From a virus, in the IMG/VR virus record IMGVR_UViG_3300020164_000072, positions 1 to 31,314 of that record: DNA of 31,314 nucleotides. One strand, 5' to 3'. The position numbers were made by a program, and so were the translations under genes. Shown one piece after another: positions 1,983 through 15,141 of this stretch. Under the pieces are notes generated by a model. It saw only the letters and a program-made list of their open reading frames with translations. It made no database searches and was not told where the DNA came from. Position 1 is the first letter of the stretch; each line of letters opens with the position of its first letter.

Positions 1983-2461
1983 ATCATAGTAGATTTGATC
2001 ATTATATTAAAACTAATACTTTATTAAATAATGAAAATAATTGTGTAGAATTTACTAAAGTTGTTAATGAATGGGGATATGCTAGAGTAGGTAAAACATA
2101 CGTAGGAAATAATTATGCACGATTATTACATCGAGCTGTTTGGATTAGACACAATGGTCCTATACCAGAAAAATTACTTGTATGTCATAAATGTGATAAT
2201 CCTAAATGTTTAAATTTGCAACATTTATTTTTAGGAACTGTTGCAGATAATAATAGAGATAAGATGCTTAAAGGGAGATGTTCAAGAGTGAAGGGTGAAT
2301 CTCGGCCTAATTCTAAATTAACAGATATTAAAGTTAGAGAAATAAGAAACTATCAAGGAAAGTTGTCAGGCCCTAAAATTGCAGCTTTATATAAGGTTCA
2401 TTCTTCTTTAATTTATCGTATTTGGACAGGTGAAATTTGGAGTCATGTAAAACAAAATTGA
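1976..2461 (+). CDS. HNH homing-type endonuclease (HNH_3 style)
   Basis: Predicted free-standing HNH nuclease of 161 residues. The core runs from about residue 53 (HRAVWIRHNGPIPEKLLV) through CHKCDNPKCLN to HLFLGT and NNRDK, the pattern of HNH_3 homing nucleases. The C-terminus (NSKLTDIKVREIR onward) is a DNA-binding helix-turn-helix like those in phage homing nucleases. The ATG at 1976 lies inside the end of the helicase gene with GAGGA six bases upstream, and the stop falls 17 bases before the polymerase start. Placement exactly between two replication genes is typical of a selfish insertion that spreads by cutting a neighbouring conserved gene. The reading frame looks intact; activity is not proven. 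Confidence 0.8.
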   Translation: MVDHSRFDHYIKTNTLLNNENNCVEFTKVVNEWGYARVGKTYVGNNYARLLHRAVWIRHNGPIPEKLLVCHKCDNPKCLNLQHLFLGTVADNNRDKMLKGRCSRVKGESRPNSKLTDIKVREIRNYQGKLSGPKIAALYKVHSSLIYRIWTGEIWSHVKQN

Positions 2462-2478
2462 TGGTAATGGAGAGACAA

Positions 2479-4626
2479 ATGACTAAATTTTGTGTTCTAG
2501 ATACAGAAACCAGCATTGGAAAAACTATCCATTCAGGCACATTTCGTGATCCTAAAAATGATATATACACATTAATTTATGGGACACATCCTAAAGCTAT
2601 TAATGTAGAGCATAATCTACAAGGATTCAAAAGAACCTTGTCTGAAGGTTGCGTCAAAGCTTTAGAACAATCCGATTGTATTATCGCACATAATGCACCA
2701 TTCGATTTAGCTTACATATGGCATGACAAGTCTTTTCAAGCCTTTATTAAAAGAGGGGGCTTTACTTGGGATACTCAAATTGCTGAATATCTTATGTCTG
2801 GACAACGACATGCATTTGCTTCCCTTGCAGAACTGCAATTAATCTATTTAGATAAAAAAGTAAAAGAAGATAGAATTTCTAAACTATTTAAAAAAGGGAT
2901 TGGTGCTGATGTAATCATAACACATAAAAACAGTCATAAAAGAATATTTGAATTATTTAATAAATACTGTTATGGAGACGGCAGTTCTACATTTGAAATA
3001 GCTGTTAAACAAATAGAAAGAGCTAAAAGACTCGGTATGGTAGATGTTATTAAAACATATAACATGTATATGTTGGCCTTAGTATCTACAATGACTACAG
3101 GGATTAAAGTTGACCTAATAAATACAGAAAAAACATTAAAAGCTTTGAAACTTAAATCTATAGAGTTTTTACAAAAGTCCGAAGAGATTGTTAGCCAATT
3201 CTGGTCTGATCCAGACTTACCACCATTTAATATACAGTCTCCTACACATAAGAGTGCCCTGTTGTTTGGTGGAAGTATTAAATGTAAGAAACGAGAAGAC
3301 GCTGGATTTTATAAAAATGGTAAACCCAAGACTAAAATTATTGAAACTAATATAGAAATTCACGGATTTAACTTGCCCATAACACTAACATCACCTAGTG
3401 AAGTAAACGGCAGGTATAGAACTGGTGCTGAAATTATTGAAAAAATTTCTAATACAATTGAAGATCCATTAGTTAAACAATATTGTAAATTACAAAAACT
3501 GTCTATGAAAGTGGAGAAAGTGTGCTCAACTTATCTTGAGCCATTTCTTAACTATTCTATTGACGGGATATTGTACCCACACTACAATAATACAGCTACA
3601 ACAACTGGGCGTTTAAGTTCATCTAAACCTAATTTACAAAACATTACAAGTAAAGGAGGCATGGAGAAATATATTAAAAATCAATTCATAGCACTAGTCG
3701 GTTACAAATGTGTGTCTATAGATTTTAGTCAGCTAGAAATTTATATTCTAGCAATGATTAGTGAAGATCCTAAACTTACTAATGACCTATTAGACGGAGT
3801 TGATTTTCATATATTACGCCTTTCTTACGCAGAAGATATGGCCTATAATGACGTATACAAATTGTGTAAAATAGATAAATTACCAGAATGGGAATTAAAG
3901 CGTAGTAAAGCTAAGACTATTAGTTATCAAAAAGCCTATGGTGCTTCACCTAAAAAACTAGCCCTGTCTACAGGATTAGATGAGGATGTTATTAAAAAGA
4001 TCTTTACCAAAGAAGATGAAGATTATCCTTGCGTTAAAGAATTTAATGATAAAGTAGTTAGTACTGTAAACAGTAATAAATTTCCTTCATTATCTAAACA
4101 CATACCTAATTTTCGAAAAGGGTTTAATAAGTACTCTAAAAGATTTATTGGTGGAATAGAATTGCTTCCGATTATGAAAGATAAATTAAACGCAGATTAC
4201 ATAAATGATAGATTTAGAGATATTGGTTATTACCAATCTATTACAGGTAAGCGATATGCATTTGAAGAAATGGGACAATATGATAAATTTGGAAAGGTAA
4301 GAGCAGGTTTCTCACCTACACAGATGAAGAACTATGCGGTACAAGGCGGTGCAGCAGATGTTGTAGCTCTTGCAACTAGTGAAATCTTTCAATACATTCT
4401 ATCATTGAATAATGACGATGTTAAGATGATTAATCAGGTGCATGATAGTATTGAGTTTTACGTAAAAGAAGATAAATTAAGCTTGACAGTCCCTAAAATT
4501 AAAGGTATAATGGAGGATATACCGACTTTATTTAAAAAGTATTTAAAGAAAGACGCCCCTTTTAAATTTAAAGTAGATGTAAAAGTAGGTAATAACTTCT
4601 ACTTAATGGAAAATTATGAAGCATAA
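2479..4626 (+). CDS. PolA-type DNA polymerase with 3'-5' exonuclease
   Basis: Family A DNA polymerase, 715 residues from the chosen ATG at 2479 (GGAGAG at 2469-2474); the frame is open back to 2437, inside the nuclease gene. The proofreading domain has D8-x-E10, HNAPFD (Asp76) and Y162xxxD166. The polymerase domain has TTGRLSSSKPNLQNI, motif A DFSQLE (Asp415), motif B R475-SKA-K479-TIS-Y483 and motif C VHDS (Asp656-Ser657). Tyr483 matches Phe762 of E. coli Pol I; Tyr there is also found in T7 polymerase. Ser657 replaces the usual Glu of motif C (HDE), while both metal-binding aspartates are kept. No 5'-3' exonuclease domain is fused; that activity is a separate gene at 5681. Clearly the replicative polymerase of this phage. 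Confidence 0.95.
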   Translation: MTKFCVLDTETSIGKTIHSGTFRDPKNDIYTLIYGTHPKAINVEHNLQGFKRTLSEGCVKALEQSDCIIAHNAPFDLAYIWHDKSFQAFIKRGGFTWDTQIAEYLMSGQRHAFASLAELQLIYLDKKVKEDRISKLFKKGIGADVIITHKNSHKRIFELFNKYCYGDGSSTFEIAVKQIERAKRLGMVDVIKTYNMYMLALVSTMTTGIKVDLINTEKTLKALKLKSIEFLQKSEEIVSQFWSDPDLPPFNIQSPTHKSALLFGGSIKCKKREDAGFYKNGKPKTKIIETNIEIHGFNLPITLTSPSEVNGRYRTGAEIIEKISNTIEDPLVKQYCKLQKLSMKVEKVCSTYLEPFLNYSIDGILYPHYNNTATTTGRLSSSKPNLQNITSKGGMEKYIKNQFIALVGYKCVSIDFSQLEIYILAMISEDPKLTNDLLDGVDFHILRLSYAEDMAYNDVYKLCKIDKLPEWELKRSKAKTISYQKAYGASPKKLALSTGLDEDVIKKIFTKEDEDYPCVKEFNDKVVSTVNSNKFPSLSKHIPNFRKGFNKYSKRFIGGIELLPIMKDKLNADYINDRFRDIGYYQSITGKRYAFEEMGQYDKFGKVRAGFSPTQMKNYAVQGGAADVVALATSEIFQYILSLNNDDVKMINQVHDSIEFYVKEDKLSLTVPKIKGIMEDIPTLFKKYLKKDAPFKFKVDVKVGNNFYLMENYEA

Positions 4627-9351: not shown

Positions 9352-10239
9352 ATGAATAAAGTACAAGGTGGTGTTAAAAAGCCTTTAATTCTCTTTTATG
9401 ATTTAGAATCGCTTCCGCTACAAGCTTATGTCTGGGGTTGCGGCGAAAATCATATTCGACATCAACAATTACTTCCTAATAAAAACATGTGGGAATTAAT
9501 TTGTATTACATATTGCTGGAATGATGACCCTGTACAAATTATTAAATGGACACCAGAAGGCGGTACAGAACAAATGATGAAAGAGTTTGATCTATTACTT
9601 GAAAAAGCCGATCACACTATTGGTAAGAATAGTGATAGATTTGACGTTAAAATTCTTAATGCACATAGAATGTTGCAAGGTCTTCCAGGTAATCCGTCTT
9701 GGTCTAAATACGCAGACGACTTAGAAAAACAAATGAGGAGATATTTTAGACTTCCCTCACAATCGTTAGATTATATATCTGCGCAATTAGGCCTAGGTGG
9801 TAAGGTTAAAATGGAACTTCAAGATTGGATTGATATTGATAGATATTTTGATGTTCAAAAATTATTACAAGATAAACGCTTAGATGAAGTCAGTATAAAT
9901 GCTGTATGCAATAACCAATATAGAACATCTATAGATGATATATTAAAAGTTGGTAAAAAAGCAATGGATAAGATGTGTTTCTATGGTAAGAAAGATACAT
10001 GTGATACTCGTACTCTGTGGAACAAACTTAAAAAACATTTTGAACCCAAATTAAATCTTGCTACACTTTACAACTCTGCTACGGACATTACTTGTAGACA
10101 TTGTAATGGAAGTAATTTAACAAAATGGGGAACTAAAGCATCAGGTAAGACCTTATGGCAAACATATCAATGTAAAGACTGTATGTGTTATGCTGGTAGA
10201 ACACCTATTAAAATGACAAGTAAGACGAGGTTATCATAA
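9352..10239 (+). CDS. RNase H-fold 3'-5' exonuclease with C-terminal zinc ribbon
   Basis: 295-residue DnaQ-like nuclease (RNase_H_2/YprB type). The catalytic acids fit YDLESLP (D17, E19), KNSDRFDVKIL (Asp98) and YGKKDTCDT (Y211, D215). After about residue 245 a zinc ribbon follows: C248-x2-C251 and C274-x2-C277 (ITCRHCNGSN, QCKDC), which may bind nucleic acid. The polymerase already carries proofreading, so this enzyme probably acts in DNA degradation, recombination or end processing; that is inference. Strong ribosome site (AGGAG) and its own promoter at 9297. The stop shares TAATG with the next gene. Confidence 0.75.
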   Translation: MNKVQGGVKKPLILFYDLESLPLQAYVWGCGENHIRHQQLLPNKNMWELICITYCWNDDPVQIIKWTPEGGTEQMMKEFDLLLEKADHTIGKNSDRFDVKILNAHRMLQGLPGNPSWSKYADDLEKQMRRYFRLPSQSLDYISAQLGLGGKVKMELQDWIDIDRYFDVQKLLQDKRLDEVSINAVCNNQYRTSIDDILKVGKKAMDKMCFYGKKDTCDTRTLWNKLKKHFEPKLNLATLYNSATDITCRHCNGSNLTKWGTKASGKTLWQTYQCKDCMCYAGRTPIKMTSKTRLS

Positions 10240-10559: not shown

Positions 10560-10765
10560 CTTTCTTATTATATAAAAAAGAAGAAGAAATTAAGGATGAC
10601 ATTTCAATTAAGTCTGTGCGAGATTCATTAAAATCGTTAAATGGACAATTAGGGTATTTAGCTTGTGCTCCGATACTTAGTATTGAAGATAAATTTGCAT
10701 TAAAAGCTGCCATATCATTTATATATAAAGCATATAGCACACTAGAATTGGTTATTGACAAATAG
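10556..10765 (+). CDS. Hypothetical helical protein, 69 aa
   Basis: Small all-helical protein with a charged N-terminus (YKKEEEIKDD) and alternating hydrophobic helices; no family recognised. ATGA overlap upstream. Its last codons and stop contain the -35 element of the next promoter (10755-10760), so the promoter begins inside this gene. Confidence 0.55.
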   Translation: MTFLLYKKEEEIKDDISIKSVRDSLKSLNGQLGYLACAPILSIEDKFALKAAISFIYKAYSTLELVIDK

Positions 10766-10783
10766 TTATAAATATATTATAAT
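10755..10783 (+). promoter_or_regulatory. Perfect-consensus sigma70 promoter
   Basis: TTGACA at 10755-10760, exactly 17 bases, TATAAT at 10778-10783: both hexamers match consensus. AAGGAG and ATG (10802) follow after a leader of roughly 12 bases. Probably the strongest promoter in the window; it drives 10802-12121 and possibly the ClpX-like gene. Confidence 0.85.
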
Positions 10784-10801: not shown

Positions 10802-11020
10802 ATGTATAATGAAAACTATGACTACATATTATTTGAAGTAGTACTACTCAAAAAAAGACTTAAAGATTACTACCAAGAAGAAGTAACAGATAATAAGGCA
10901 GATATTCTAAATGGTAAAGCTATATTACTTGCTAATGCTTTACAAACGATAGACCATTTAGCACACACACTAGAATTATACGATAGACAATTTATTAGTA
11001 AACAAGAGGATGTTAACTAG
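10802..11020 (+). CDS. Hypothetical protein, 72 aa, first gene of a strong promoter
   Basis: Acidic helical protein starting MYNENYDYILFEVV, probably two helices with a coiled-coil-like pattern (VLLKKRLKDYYQEEV). No family recognised. Its place right after a perfect promoter with a strong AAGGAG suggests high, early expression, a position often held by host-takeover proteins; that role is inference only. The 61 bases after it hold a short hairpin (GCAGT-GAAG-ACTGC) but no gene I trust. Confidence 0.6.
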   Translation: MYNENYDYILFEVVLLKKRLKDYYQEEVTDNKADILNGKAILLANALQTIDHLAHTLELYDRQFISKQEDVN

Positions 11021-11081: not shown

Positions 11082-11309
11082 ATGAAACAGGATTTAAATT
11101 ACGATTTAATGGCAGGATCAAAGAATTTTTATTTCGATTTAATGGCAGAATCATTAGTTGACGACATTAAAACAGCTTCATCTATTAGTGAGGGTGAAAA
11201 GATTCTTTCTGACCAATTACAGTATATTTATACTCAGGGACTTGAACAAGGTGTATTAAATTGTATTGCTAAATTAGAGCACGAACGATTAGTCGGGATC
11301 TGCAAATGA
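11082..11309 (+). CDS. Hypothetical protein, 75 aa, with an internal repeat
   Basis: Soluble, acidic, helical protein; good GGAG site before the ATG. Residues 7-24 hold a repeated unit (YDLMAGSKNFY then FDLMAES) encoded by a 33-base-period direct repeat. No family recognised. Its stop shares ATGA with the SbmA-like transporter start, so the two are translated together and might cooperate. Confidence 0.6.
   Translation: MKQDLNYDLMAGSKNFYFDLMAESLVDDIKTASSISEGEKILSDQLQYIYTQGLEQGVLNCIAKLEHERLVGICK
11102..11153 (+). repeat. In-frame 19-base direct repeat, period 33
   Basis: CGATTTAATGGCAGGATCA at 11102-11120 and CGATTTAATGGCAGAATCA at 11135-11153 differ by one base. The 33-base period keeps frame and duplicates a DLMA unit near the start of the 75-aa gene. 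Confidence 0.8.
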
Positions 11310-12121
11310 TAAAATGGCTCACTGCCCTAGGACTAGTAAATATATTAGAAGTATTATTAGTCTTAGGCTTGACATTCTGGAGAGAACATTTCTGGAATGC
11401 AATATCTACTAAAGATATTCATGGATTCTTTTTTTATTTAGGTATATTTGCCGTATTAACCCTAGTTCTTTGTTTTGTAACATCCTCCAGTGTTTATTTT
11501 GGAACAAGAGCAGCTATTTCTTGGAGAGAGAAACTTAGCGCTTTAGCTAATAAATTTAAGACATCAAAAATAGAAAACGTTTCTCAAAGAATTCAAGCTG
11601 ATTGTTTTGACTACCCTAACTTATGTATTGTATTAGGCGGCGGTGCTTTTAAGGCTTTCCTGTATGTTCTCTTATTCTCTTTATCAATCATATTCAACTT
11701 TAATTCTGTGTGGCTAATATGGATAATAGGTTATAGTATTCTATCCACTGTCATTGCTCATTATATTGGGGCACCATTAGTCCACCTTAATTATAAAAAT
11801 CAAATGCTAGAAGCTACATATAGAAATTCCTTGACAAAATTAAATTTTCGTAAATGTATTGACATTCAACTAAAACTAGCGAAGAAACTCAAGCATCTAC
11901 AGTACTTCCAGAGCTTCTACGGACAACTCGGCGTGATTATCCCCTTGCTCATCATAGCACCAGAGTACTTTAGTACAACGATGACCCTGGGCCATCTAAT
12001 GCAGGCTAATAGCACAATGGGGACGCTTTCTGATTCACTTAGTTATGGCATTAATACTTTTGATCAATTCAACAAACTCCGCTCATGTAAAAAACGCTTG
12101 AAAGAGTTAAAAATCATCTAG
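11306..12121 (+). CDS. SbmA/BacA-like peptide transporter (membrane domain only)
   Basis: 271-residue inner-membrane protein with the order of motifs seen in SbmA/BacA and the related YddA-type ABC membrane domain: WREHFWNAISTKDIHGFFF (25-43), ISWREKL (71-77), NVSQRIQAD (91-99), IPLLIIAPEYFS (212-223), TLGHLMQ (227-233) and a terminal RLKEL. Hydrophobic segments fall at about 3-23, 41-62, 106-131, 135-160 and 205-219. There is no nucleotide-binding domain, as in SbmA, which works on a proton gradient and imports peptide antibiotics. SbmA is about 400 residues, so this is a shortened form. Bases 11880-12040 are markedly richer in G+C than the rest of the gene. Role in infection unknown. Confidence 0.7.
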   Translation: MIKWLTALGLVNILEVLLVLGLTFWREHFWNAISTKDIHGFFFYLGIFAVLTLVLCFVTSSSVYFGTRAAISWREKLSALANKFKTSKIENVSQRIQADCFDYPNLCIVLGGGAFKAFLYVLLFSLSIIFNFNSVWLIWIIGYSILSTVIAHYIGAPLVHLNYKNQMLEATYRNSLTKLNFRKCIDIQLKLAKKLKHLQYFQSFYGQLGVIIPLLIIAPEYFSTTMTLGHLMQANSTMGTLSDSLSYGINTFDQFNKLRSCKKRLKELKII

Positions 12122-12138
12122 CAATTCTTCCAAATATA

Positions 12139-12176: not shown

Positions 12177-13190
12177 ATGCTGTACTCTAGAAGTAACGAG
12201 ACTATTCTTAAAGAACTAGACCAAGTGGTATATGGACACAAAGCAGCTAAAATGGCTTTGATTACACTAGTCAATCGTTCTAAGATGCGTTATCACCAAA
12301 TATGGCATGCTGAAACACCTGTAGCTCAGGACGATTTAGTTAAGAATGTTAACTGTCTATTGATTGGTAATAGTGGTACAGGTAAAACCCATTTGGTTCA
12401 ATCTTTGTCTAAGATTTGTGATTTTCCTTTGGTTTGTATAGATGCCAACCAATTAGCACCTACTAACGCGTCTGATGGATTTAGTGTTGATAGACTGATT
12501 AAAACTCTTAAAAAAGAAGCGTCTAGGTTGGTAGAAGAAAAGCCAGAAATATACTTTTCTAAAGATGGTGCTCTAGATCAAATGGTTGTGTTTATCGATG
12601 AAGTAGATAAACTAGCCAAAGCATTCGACAGCACTGGTAGTTGGAACCAACATGTACAAGCAGGGTTTCTATCTCTGTTTGAGAACACTACTGAATTGGC
12701 CAATCTTTCATTTATCTTTGCCGGCGCATTTGATAAAATGACTCTTAGTAAAGAAAGTAATAAAAGATCTATTGGCTTTAAAACAGAAGTACATGAAGTA
12801 AATAATGAATTTGATTTGGAACAAGAAGTTATTAAATATGGACTACTTCCGGAATTAGTAGGTCGTATTCATAATATCGTACCTCTTGACAAATTGGAAA
12901 AGGCTGATTATAAGAAGATATTGAGAACTCTTATTCTTCCAAATATGAGAAAAGAATTGAAACATTTTAATTGCCCAAACTTCACCTTGTCTGTTAAAGA
13001 AGAAGAGGATATAATTAATAAAGCTGTAAAATCTAAGATGGGTGTTAGAATACTTAGGAAAGAAGTCTTGAAATTGGCTCAAGAAATAGAATTTGATTAC
13101 GAATGGGAGGTTGTAGCACCAAAACCAAAACCAAAATCTAGAATCTTTGAAGCAGAACTTAAAGACTTGATTGCAAATAAAAAGGACTAA
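12177..13190 (+). CDS. ClpX-like AAA+ unfoldase without N-domain
   Basis: 337-residue AAA+ ATPase most like ClpX. Walker A GNSGTGKT (64-71), Walker B VVFIDE (137-142), sensor-1 region LSFIFAGAF, arginine finger in PELVGR (Arg230), sensor 2 in GVRILRK (289-295). The pore-1 loop GYVG of ClpX appears as GFSV (101-104), keeping the aromatic residue. IGF at 199-201 sits where ClpX has its ClpP-docking loop. The zinc-binding N-domain of ClpX is absent, and the stretch with the RKH loop is deleted (FENTTELANLSFIF). The ATG at 12177 with AAAGGA is preferred to the in-frame ATG at 12138. No protease subunit is encoded nearby. It may use host ClpP or act alone as a remodeller. Confidence 0.85.
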   Translation: MLYSRSNETILKELDQVVYGHKAAKMALITLVNRSKMRYHQIWHAETPVAQDDLVKNVNCLLIGNSGTGKTHLVQSLSKICDFPLVCIDANQLAPTNASDGFSVDRLIKTLKKEASRLVEEKPEIYFSKDGALDQMVVFIDEVDKLAKAFDSTGSWNQHVQAGFLSLFENTTELANLSFIFAGAFDKMTLSKESNKRSIGFKTEVHEVNNEFDLEQEVIKYGLLPELVGRIHNIVPLDKLEKADYKKILRTLILPNMRKELKHFNCPNFTLSVKEEEDIINKAVKSKMGVRILRKEVLKLAQEIEFDYEWEVVAPKPKPKSRIFEAELKDLIANKKD

Positions 13191-13193
13191 ACT

Positions 13194-13310
13194 ATGCCAA
13201 CTGTAATGATGATAGCTTTAGGTATTGGTGTCCTAGTCCCATTAGCGGGACTAGGTTTCTTAACTGCAGCACTTGTTATCTGGTGCGTTTATAATGAAAC
13301 TACTTTTTAG
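13194..13310 (+). CDS. Tiny hydrophobic protein, 38 aa, at the convergence point
   Basis: Short frame with AAGGA seven bases upstream of its ATG. The product is almost one membrane helix (MIALGIGVLVPLAGLGF and on to LVIWCVYNE). It overlaps the end of the opposing ejection-protein gene by 11 bases, and its middle is made of a perfect inverted repeat. It may be a real small membrane protein or a chance frame over a terminator. Confidence 0.4.
   Translation: MPTVMMIALGIGVLVPLAGLGFLTAALVIWCVYNETTF
13232..13261 (+). terminator. Strong hairpin between converging arms
   Basis: Perfect 9-bp stem CCTAGTCCC (13232-13240) / GGGACTAGG (13247-13255) with loop ATTAGC, followed by TTTCTT. It would end plus-strand transcription from the early arm; on the minus strand the hairpin has no T run. 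It lies within the 38-aa frame. Confidence 0.65.
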
Positions 13311-15141
13311 ACTTGTCGTCTAAATAAGAATCACCTGGCGGTGCTAAATAAGTATCTGTAAAACCTTGTGGACCACTACCATCAAATATATGAGCAACAC
13401 GTCTTGCAGACATACCAGGACCAGCAATAGATACTTTATCTAAAACTTTTTTAAATGTCATTAATAATGTTTGTTCATTTGGTTTAGACATTAATTTAGC
13501 AACGTCCGGTTTCCATTTCCCATTAATTGTTAAATCAACCAATGCTTTATTATATCTACCTAGTGTAAGATCATCTACGAAACTTGAAAGACGACTAAAG
13601 ATAGTCGCAGATCCATTCATAAGATTTCCTCTTATAGAAGTACCTGCATTAACGCCTTCTGGTTTTGCTTTAAGCAATGATTCTAAAGGCGATTGTCTAA
13701 TCTGATTTAATACTTGTATTACATCAGAAGCTTGATAGTCATTACCACCGGTACGTTTAACAGCTTCTATAAATCTAGATTGTTTTTCAGGAGTGCTCCA
13801 TAATTTATTATACATCTGATCTAAAGTAACCTCACCATTTATAGCTCTAGGTTCTGGTTTAATCATTCCTAATTCTTTATTAATCTGACTCTTTAATGTA
13901 AGTCTTTCAGCTATTTTCCTAGCTTGAGCATATTGAGGATATTCACTATCTAATCTATCAACAATCTGTGCTCTAGCATCTTGTAAAACAGATTTTTCAG
14001 AAGCTGATATTGTTTTTTCATTTCCATTTAAAAATGTTTTATTATTATATAATTGACTATCAATCTCTTTTTTTACGGCATCAAGTTTTAATACGCTGTT
14101 ATCAGGCATTTCTTTTAAAGCTTGAGGCATCAAAGGATTTTTATTTAGTGCTTGAAGTTCATTAGAAATTACAGGATGACTTAATAAAGCTTCTGATGTT
14201 TGAGGAGTAGCTTGTAAGGGTGCTAAGTCTTCATACATTTTAGCTTTAGTTGTTTTAGCTACTTCATCACCTTCAGGAACAAAATTATCTATAAGGTCTT
14301 TAACTTTTGTTTTTAATACACTAGATCTGTCATTTAAATATTTAGCTGCTTCTAGTTTACTTTGTTGAGAAACTAAATATCCTTTCTCTGCCTGAGGTAA
14401 TATATTACCTCCCACAGTTTCTCCTGGAGTTAATGTTACACCGACTCTGTCAGCAGCTTGTCCTCTAACTAACGTATTGTTTAAATTAGTTGTATTACTA
14501 ATATTAGAAGCAATTTCCTGTGTGGCAGCATCTTCTGGTTTGAATAATTTCCTTAATAAACCTGGAGAAGATTCAGCCGTGGAATTTAATAAGGATTTAG
14601 CACCCATCCAGCCTAGTTCACCTGCAGCCCCAAATACGCCAGACATTGCAGCCCCATATAAGCCTCTTTCTTGTCTTTGTTCTGGAGATCCATATTGACT
14701 CCCCATTAAAGTTCCACCTGTAGCAGCATAAGATGCTATTTTAGTAGCAAGATTAGCTTTAGCTACTGGTAATAAGGCCTCTTGTCCAATATATCCTGAA
14801 AACTCCCCTATTTTTGAAGCTACTGGATGATCTATAAGATCTTGGGCATATTCTCTTTCTTTTTGTTGATTCAATTGTGTAACAGCTTTATTAAATTTAT
14901 CTGGGAGATAATTAGATAATAATTGTAATCCGCCTTCAGCAGTTCTACCAAAAGCCCTATTCCAGCCGTCTATAGCAGACATAAAAGCACTATTATGTAC
15001 TGGCTCTTGTTGTGCTTCTTGTTTAGGAACTAAATCTTGAAATTGATTTTTAGGCGAAGCAACAGAATTATCTGGAGTAGTGTTAACTTCAGGAGAACTT
15101 GTATCTGGCTGTTTAGGAATTAAATCATCAAAAGAACCCAT
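13300..15141 (-). CDS. Ejection / DNA-transfer protein (gp16 position)
   Basis: 613-residue protein, last of the virion operon and in the place of P22 gp16, the ejection protein that helps DNA cross the inner membrane. The N-terminus repeats a short motif (FDDLIPKQ at 4-11 and FQDLVPKQ at 33-40) often seen in phage ejection proteins. Two small-residue-rich stretches (about 85-180, for example GQEALLPVAKANLATKIASY) could insert in a membrane; the rest is helical. AAAGGA precedes the ATG, which shares TAATG with the previous stop. It probably travels in the capsid and is released at infection. Role assigned from position and composition rather than clear homology. Confidence 0.65.
   Translation of the reverse strand: MGSFDDLIPKQPDTSSPEVNTTPDNSVASPKNQFQDLVPKQEAQQEPVHNSAFMSAIDGWNRAFGRTAEGGLQLLSNYLPDKFNKAVTQLNQQKEREYAQDLIDHPVASKIGEFSGYIGQEALLPVAKANLATKIASYAATGGTLMGSQYGSPEQRQERGLYGAAMSGVFGAAGELGWMGAKSLLNSTAESSPGLLRKLFKPEDAATQEIASNISNTTNLNNTLVRGQAADRVGVTLTPGETVGGNILPQAEKGYLVSQQSKLEAAKYLNDRSSVLKTKVKDLIDNFVPEGDEVAKTTKAKMYEDLAPLQATPQTSEALLSHPVISNELQALNKNPLMPQALKEMPDNSVLKLDAVKKEIDSQLYNNKTFLNGNEKTISASEKSVLQDARAQIVDRLDSEYPQYAQARKIAERLTLKSQINKELGMIKPEPRAINGEVTLDQMYNKLWSTPEKQSRFIEAVKRTGGNDYQASDVIQVLNQIRQSPLESLLKAKPEGVNAGTSIRGNLMNGSATIFSRLSSFVDDLTLGRYNKALVDLTINGKWKPDVAKLMSKPNEQTLLMTFKKVLDKVSIAGPGMSARRVAHIFDGSGPQGFTDTYLAPPGDSYLDDKSKK

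Follow-up and report, generated by a model that had tools for sequence, protein, structure and literature searches.

Transporters of the SbmA/BacA type (SLiPTs) have been described as connecting the primary (ABC) transporters with the secondary ones, the ATPase having been lost and a glutamate ladder gained (PMC13316013). SbmA works through this ladder, formed by E193, E203, E269, E276, E287, and E378, with Y368 as the gate, and the loss of any conserved glutamate leaves the protein inactive or severely impaired; the ladder of YddA is incomplete (PMC13316013). An N-terminal domain, TM0, is a further described feature of SLiPTs (PMC13316013). In the part of the literature covered by our search, we found no report of SbmA homologues in phages.

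Here, we compare with these systems a phage-specific protein that is related to the membrane domain of type IV ABC exporters but has no ATPase, referred to below as the compact protein. Conserved in phages, devoid of an ATPase, and left with very little of the ladder, it offers a natural test of what a bare exporter fold is able to do, and its clade may represent a second loss of the ATPase besides that of SbmA. On contigs of uncultivated phages, members of this superfamily are common and fall into two distinct kinds; the records of true cultured phages yielded none.

The Phage Locus

The window, the whole stretch of DNA analyzed here, is an IMG/VR virus record of 31,314 bases with 34% GC. It encodes PolA, a DnaB-like protein, PhoH, an exonuclease, a major head protein, and a connector protein, and this set of replication and structural genes within a viral record marks the window as a phage fragment. 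The replication genes include a DnaB-like helicase (705-1982), a protein resembling a polymerase exonuclease subunit (9352-10239), and a separate PolA (2437-4626), which suggests a split replication set.

The compact protein is encoded on the forward strand at 11306..12121, from an ATG start, and is 271 residues long. A sigma70-type promoter-like site on the same strand (TTGACA-N17-TATAAT, 12/12, at 10755..10783) and an intrinsic-terminator-like hairpin of nine pairs, six of them GC (13232..13255, +), are both consensus matches only, and on their account the ORFs beginning at 10802, 11082, and 11306, together with a ClpX-like gene, look like a single four-gene transcription unit. The predicted unit opens with a 72-aa ORF (10802..11020, +), followed by an ORF for a soluble protein of 75 aa (11082..11309, +) with no family match in Pfam or PHROGs. 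The stop codon of the latter overlaps the ATG of the transporter-like gene (ATGATAA at 11306), making translational coupling of the two likely, in keeping with the co-translation anticipated in the original prediction. The ClpX-like AAA+ ATPase, also foreseen as a neighbor, comes directly after (12177..13190, +); its ORF opens at 12138, and 12177 is the likely start, with a purine-rich AAAGGA site just 5' of it. No zinc-binding domain was seen in this ATPase. The hairpin lies 3' of the ClpX-like gene, where the predicted unit meets the convergent structural genes, among them a structural-side protein (13300..15141, −) with homologues that identify the corresponding slot in contigs L209, L210, L212, L214, and L077.

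Homology and Predicted Fold

All four motifs on which the gene was first recognized (WREHFWNA, ISWREKL, SQRIQAD, and APEYFS-TTM-TLGHLMQ) are present in ORF 11306-12121. A profile search matched both families above cutoff: Pfam SbmA_BacA (PF05992) over residues 20-268 at 71.7 bits (cutoff 24, E 9.5e-20) and ABC_membrane_2 (PF06472) at 63.5 bits (cutoff 24.4, E 2.6e-17), both far above chance. A sequence search of the PDB returned E. coli SbmA at 7e-9 and Mycobacterium tuberculosis Rv1819c at 4e-9. The SbmA equivalog model of NCBIfam (NF008306) scored 55.3 bits, far under its cutoff of 492, and identity to SbmA is about 24%. A search for defence systems gave no match for the ORF. The PHROGs family phrog_11436, a wider viral family already catalogued with its function left blank, matches the window protein and those of L050, L215, L053, L072, and L217, although the match is partial and weak for the compact clade (24-43 bits).

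The ORF stops after TM6 and contains no ATPase domain, as had been predicted, and no ABC nucleotide-binding domain (NBD, PF00005) scored above cutoff in ten contigs including the window, all of them fragments of genomes that may carry a distant gene.

The AlphaFold2 model (pLDDT 83.4, pTM 0.77) was built with a 38-sequence alignment consisting mostly of SLiPTs, which may pull it towards SbmA; from the single sequence the prediction was poor (pLDDT 55). It contains six long transmembrane helices in the arrangement of type IV exporters, with TM6 broken at residues 245-247, and the distribution of charge fits the cytosolic ends and loops of a predicted N-in/C-in topology. The top five Foldseek matches in the PDB are all SbmA, with TM scores of 0.81-0.87 for the inward-facing forms. 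Superfamily and fold thus agree with the original assignment. The VIA Z scores are close to a tie (21.3 for SbmA vs 21.2 for PCAT1), and on this predicted model the fold alone would not decide between SbmA and type IV ABC exporters. The shared fold is also all that speaks for a dominant-negative hetero-oligomer with host SbmA, a role that had been put forward for the protein; at about a quarter of residues in common, such pairing would be unlikely, and we regard it as the least probable of the readings weighed here.

Ladder Residues and Phylogenetic Placement

By alignment, the residues of the window protein at positions E193-E203-E269-E276-E287-E378 of SbmA are A-I-N-E-N-K, with a tyrosine at 368, and those of the L050 homologue are E-L-N-E-N-K, again with the tyrosine. 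The window protein accordingly keeps one of the six ladder glutamates, the E276 equivalent, and at least four of the six positions are replaced in every full-length compact member. This pattern is close to that of YddA-type ABC proteins, which have E, L/I/V/T, N/S, E, and N/R at the first five positions, apart from the tyrosine, since their gate is mostly tryptophan. In other viral SLiPTs the pattern is EEEEE almost throughout, as it is in most bacterial ones. TM0 is missing, the compact protein beginning at about SbmA residue 87; short N-termini also occur in viral and bacterial PF05992 proteins of 320-345 aa.

In an unrooted tree, the compact pair sits on a very long branch between the ABC membrane domains and the SLiPTs. 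Constraints that unite the pair with bacterial SLiPTs (p 0.001) or with viral SLiPTs of the L072 type (p 0.009) are rejected by the approximately unbiased (AU) test, in a tree whose lack of a root leaves a position as sister to SLiPTs and one with the ABC proteins indistinguishable, and long-branch attraction may account for the placement. Taken together, ladder positions and tree would put the compact protein between YddA-type ABC membrane domains and SLiPTs.

With SbmA/BacA SLiPTs (PF05992), the compact protein shares a homologous six-helix exporter fold with no ATPase domain, the gate tyrosine, and a broken TM6; it differs in lacking TM0 and most ladder glutamates, in an intracellular loop 2 (ICL2) about 22 residues shorter than that of SbmA, and in its apparent position outside the SLiPT clade. 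That it is nevertheless a bona fide proton-driven peptide importer of the SbmA/BacA type would agree with the PF05992 match and with SbmA as the best Foldseek hit, but the absence of TM0, the replaced ladder positions, and the apparent placement outside the SLiPT clade make this improbable. The label of SbmA/BacA peptide transporter, against which the equivalog cutoff and the AU test also stand, is therefore not supported.

The resemblance to YddA/Rv1819c-type ABC proteins (PF06472) extends from membrane-domain homology to ladder positions A/E-I/L-N-E-N, near those of YddA, and to the APxxF and LS motifs. Unlike them, the compact protein has no NBD and a tyrosine in place of the gate tryptophan, and both of its cytosolic loops are shorter than YddA's (ICL1 by about 15-20 residues, ICL2 by about 22). 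If the protein were half of an ABC transporter and relied on an NBD of the host, with the ATPase supplied in trans, the YddA-like ladder positions and an N-x-x-QR motif would be accounted for. However, it is the loops meant for coupling helices that are shortened, and none of the ten contigs supplied an NBD; we consider this arrangement very improbable.

Compact Homologues on Phage Contigs

The compact gene is not confined to the window. A second contig in IMG/VR, L002, has this cassette at 99%, and scans of IMG/VR recovered homologues of about 272 aa that are 45% identical over their full length (L050-L052 and L209-L212), together with L213 (238 aa), L214 (partial), and L215 (39-40% identical, on a 46.3-kb contig), for an overall range of 39-47% identity. 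PF05992 scores 61.6-69 bits on the L050, L213, and L215 proteins. A 33-residue deletion in ICL2 of L213 removes the E276 equivalent, which thus appears dispensable. Bacterial homologues retrieved with a broader profile do not exceed 29% identity, and motifs specific to the clade had no match in 84,980 species genomes, a weak negative given how strict the motifs are.

A convergent structural block adjoins the gene in L050, L209, and L214, as it does in the window, with flanking structural proteins 25-46% identical to the window's. Relatives found through the head protein had no compact gene in the sequenced genome parts compared, so the gene seems to be kept patchily. Between L050 and L209, dN is 0.0127 and dS 0.132 (dN/dS of about 0.10), indicating purifying selection; the window and L002 differ by five changes, too few for an informative ratio. 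A relic gene is ruled out by this ratio and by a frame that remains intact across 39-47% identity. With homologues in diverse IMG/VR phages and purifying selection in one pair, ORF 11306-12121 is a genuine phage gene, as originally claimed.

The neighborhoods hold several further genes. An endolysin adjoins the compact gene in L050, L209, and L214 but on the opposite strand, and none was found in the window; a holin of a lysis cassette was rejected on these grounds. Directly upstream of the compact gene, L209 (9134-9757) and L050 (3007-3633) encode a membrane protein related to haemolysin III (PF03006). A triad of PrkA kinase, DUF444 (YeaH-like), and SpoVR occupies L209:1514-6155, where all three are strong Pfam passes, and L213:9117-12393 and 13579-15078, where they are recognized by sequence likeness only. 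A ClpP-like protease ORF (PF00574, just above cutoff) occupies L213:5876-6403, its stop codon overlapping the compact gene's start, and in L215 a secreted trypsin-like protease lies two genes upstream. M48-family metallopeptidases (HExxH) occur at 85-558 in the window, L050:2224-2757, and L213:7760-8314, the latter two with hydrophobic N-termini.

A Possible Conduit and Its Alternatives

Conservation within the compact clade is highest in TM5, in TM6, and at the C-terminus, and the invariant residues cluster in TM5 and at the C-terminal end. The gate tyrosine Y247, equivalent to SbmA Y368, is invariant in the clade, and the IAPxYF and LSYG motifs of TM5/TM6 are retained. The explanation that we favor, at a probability of roughly 0.4, is that the compact protein is a homodimer of the exporter fold that has kept its gate and acts as a passive, or differently or loosely coupled, conduit. 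It ranks ahead of a non-transporting binder and of a transporter driven by its own acids, though our confidence in any mechanism for this protein is low. The homodimer would place 12 transmembrane helices in the host inner membrane, where the retained gate (Y247, IAPxYF, and LSYG) could allow it to switch or open and let peptides or other small amphiphiles through. Passage would be passive or driven by clade-specific acids, the invariant E15 in TM1 and D99. Predicted to be made together with a ClpX-like unfoldase, the protein probably serves the infected cell, in peptide or metabolite traffic, and not virion structure. Proteases recur near compact genes, namely the ClpX-like protein in the window, the ClpP-like in L213, the trypsin-like in L215, and M48 enzymes in several; as a hint from gene neighbors, this fits peptide traffic.

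By analogy with SbmA, which is crippled by the loss of ladder glutamates (PMC13316013), transport by the compact protein may be absent. On a rival reading, the fold would survive as a scaffold for docking onto a membrane protein of host or phage, be it for superinfection exclusion, to block a host ABC transporter, or as a membrane anchor for the ClpX-like ATPase. Such a pseudo-transporter would explain why both known energy-coupling devices, ladder and NBD, are gone, why ICL2 could shrink and lose 33 residues again in L213, why the C-terminus CRKRLKE, predicted to be cytosolic, is highly conserved, and why a ClpX-like gene is co-located in the window. It is an odd fate for a protein whose gate tyrosine and TM5/TM6 core are among its best conserved parts, and the reading suffers further in that no ClpX-like gene was found in the L050-L052 contigs and none is adjacent in L215. 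We judge this reading unlikely, though it comes next after the conduit.

Clade-specific acids might instead drive an active transporter with a coupling of its own, protonation of E15, D99, and E169 replacing the SbmA ladder. E15 is invariant in every full-length compact member and lies within TM1, and D99 is likewise invariant; however, these amount to four independent sequences only, and E169 is missing in L213. We hold such a transporter to be distinctly unlikely. A shade less credible again is the broader proposal of a third, phage-specific class of exporter-fold transporter, dependent on neither ATP nor the ladder of SLiPTs, which would have arisen by a separate ATPase loss, acquired its own coupling residues, and moved peptides from phage or host proteolysis.

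Full-Ladder Viral SLiPTs and an ExbB/ExbD-like Module

SLiPT genes with a full ladder are present on more than 100 other contigs of IMG/VR; they make up most of L053-L111 and L216-L287 and reach 459 bits with PF05992. A phage copy of this family had been called unexpected. That holds for INPHARED, where the SbmA matches are only host DNA filed as phage; it does not hold for IMG/VR. Of the INPHARED candidates, records CAKLQH020000002.1, CAKLQF020000003.1, and OR850887.1 were rejected as bacterial chromosome DNA around sbmA: pepO and gatAB are present on the Acinetobacter 'phage' MD-2021a contigs, and in the Salmonella 'phage' fragment ampH-sbmA-yaiW-like genes follow the E. coli order. A weak PF05992 match in a related phage, G010, proved to be a 352-aa coiled-coil/TM protein and not SbmA. 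Within IMG/VR, L057-L060 and L104 carry an enterobacterial-type sbmA, and some of the full-ladder contigs may include host DNA.

Like the compact proteins, the full-ladder viral SLiPTs are encoded on viral contigs and homologous to SbmA_BacA, and some share the genome slot (L077); they differ in their length of about 320-345 aa, in being nearly all EEEEE-x-E, and in that many adjoin an ExbB/ExbD-like pair. At 22 of the 63 loci from the first scan, the SLiPT gene has genes for ExbB-like and ExbD-like proteins and for a third, small membrane protein close by, mostly as immediate neighbors, and a second scan found the pair in the SLiPT flanks at 13 loci, giving at least 35 in all. At 80 bacterial SbmA loci, no such pair was found in flanks of up to 3 kb. 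The pairing in phages of a putative proton channel with a presumed proton-driven peptide importer looks undescribed. All 11 of the ExbB-like proteins tested match Pfam MotA_ExbB (E <= 0.01), and the module of ExbB-like, ExbD/TolR-like, and third membrane protein lies at L072:5809-8283, L077:5635-8165, L110:4110-6641, and L079:3767-6777, among others.
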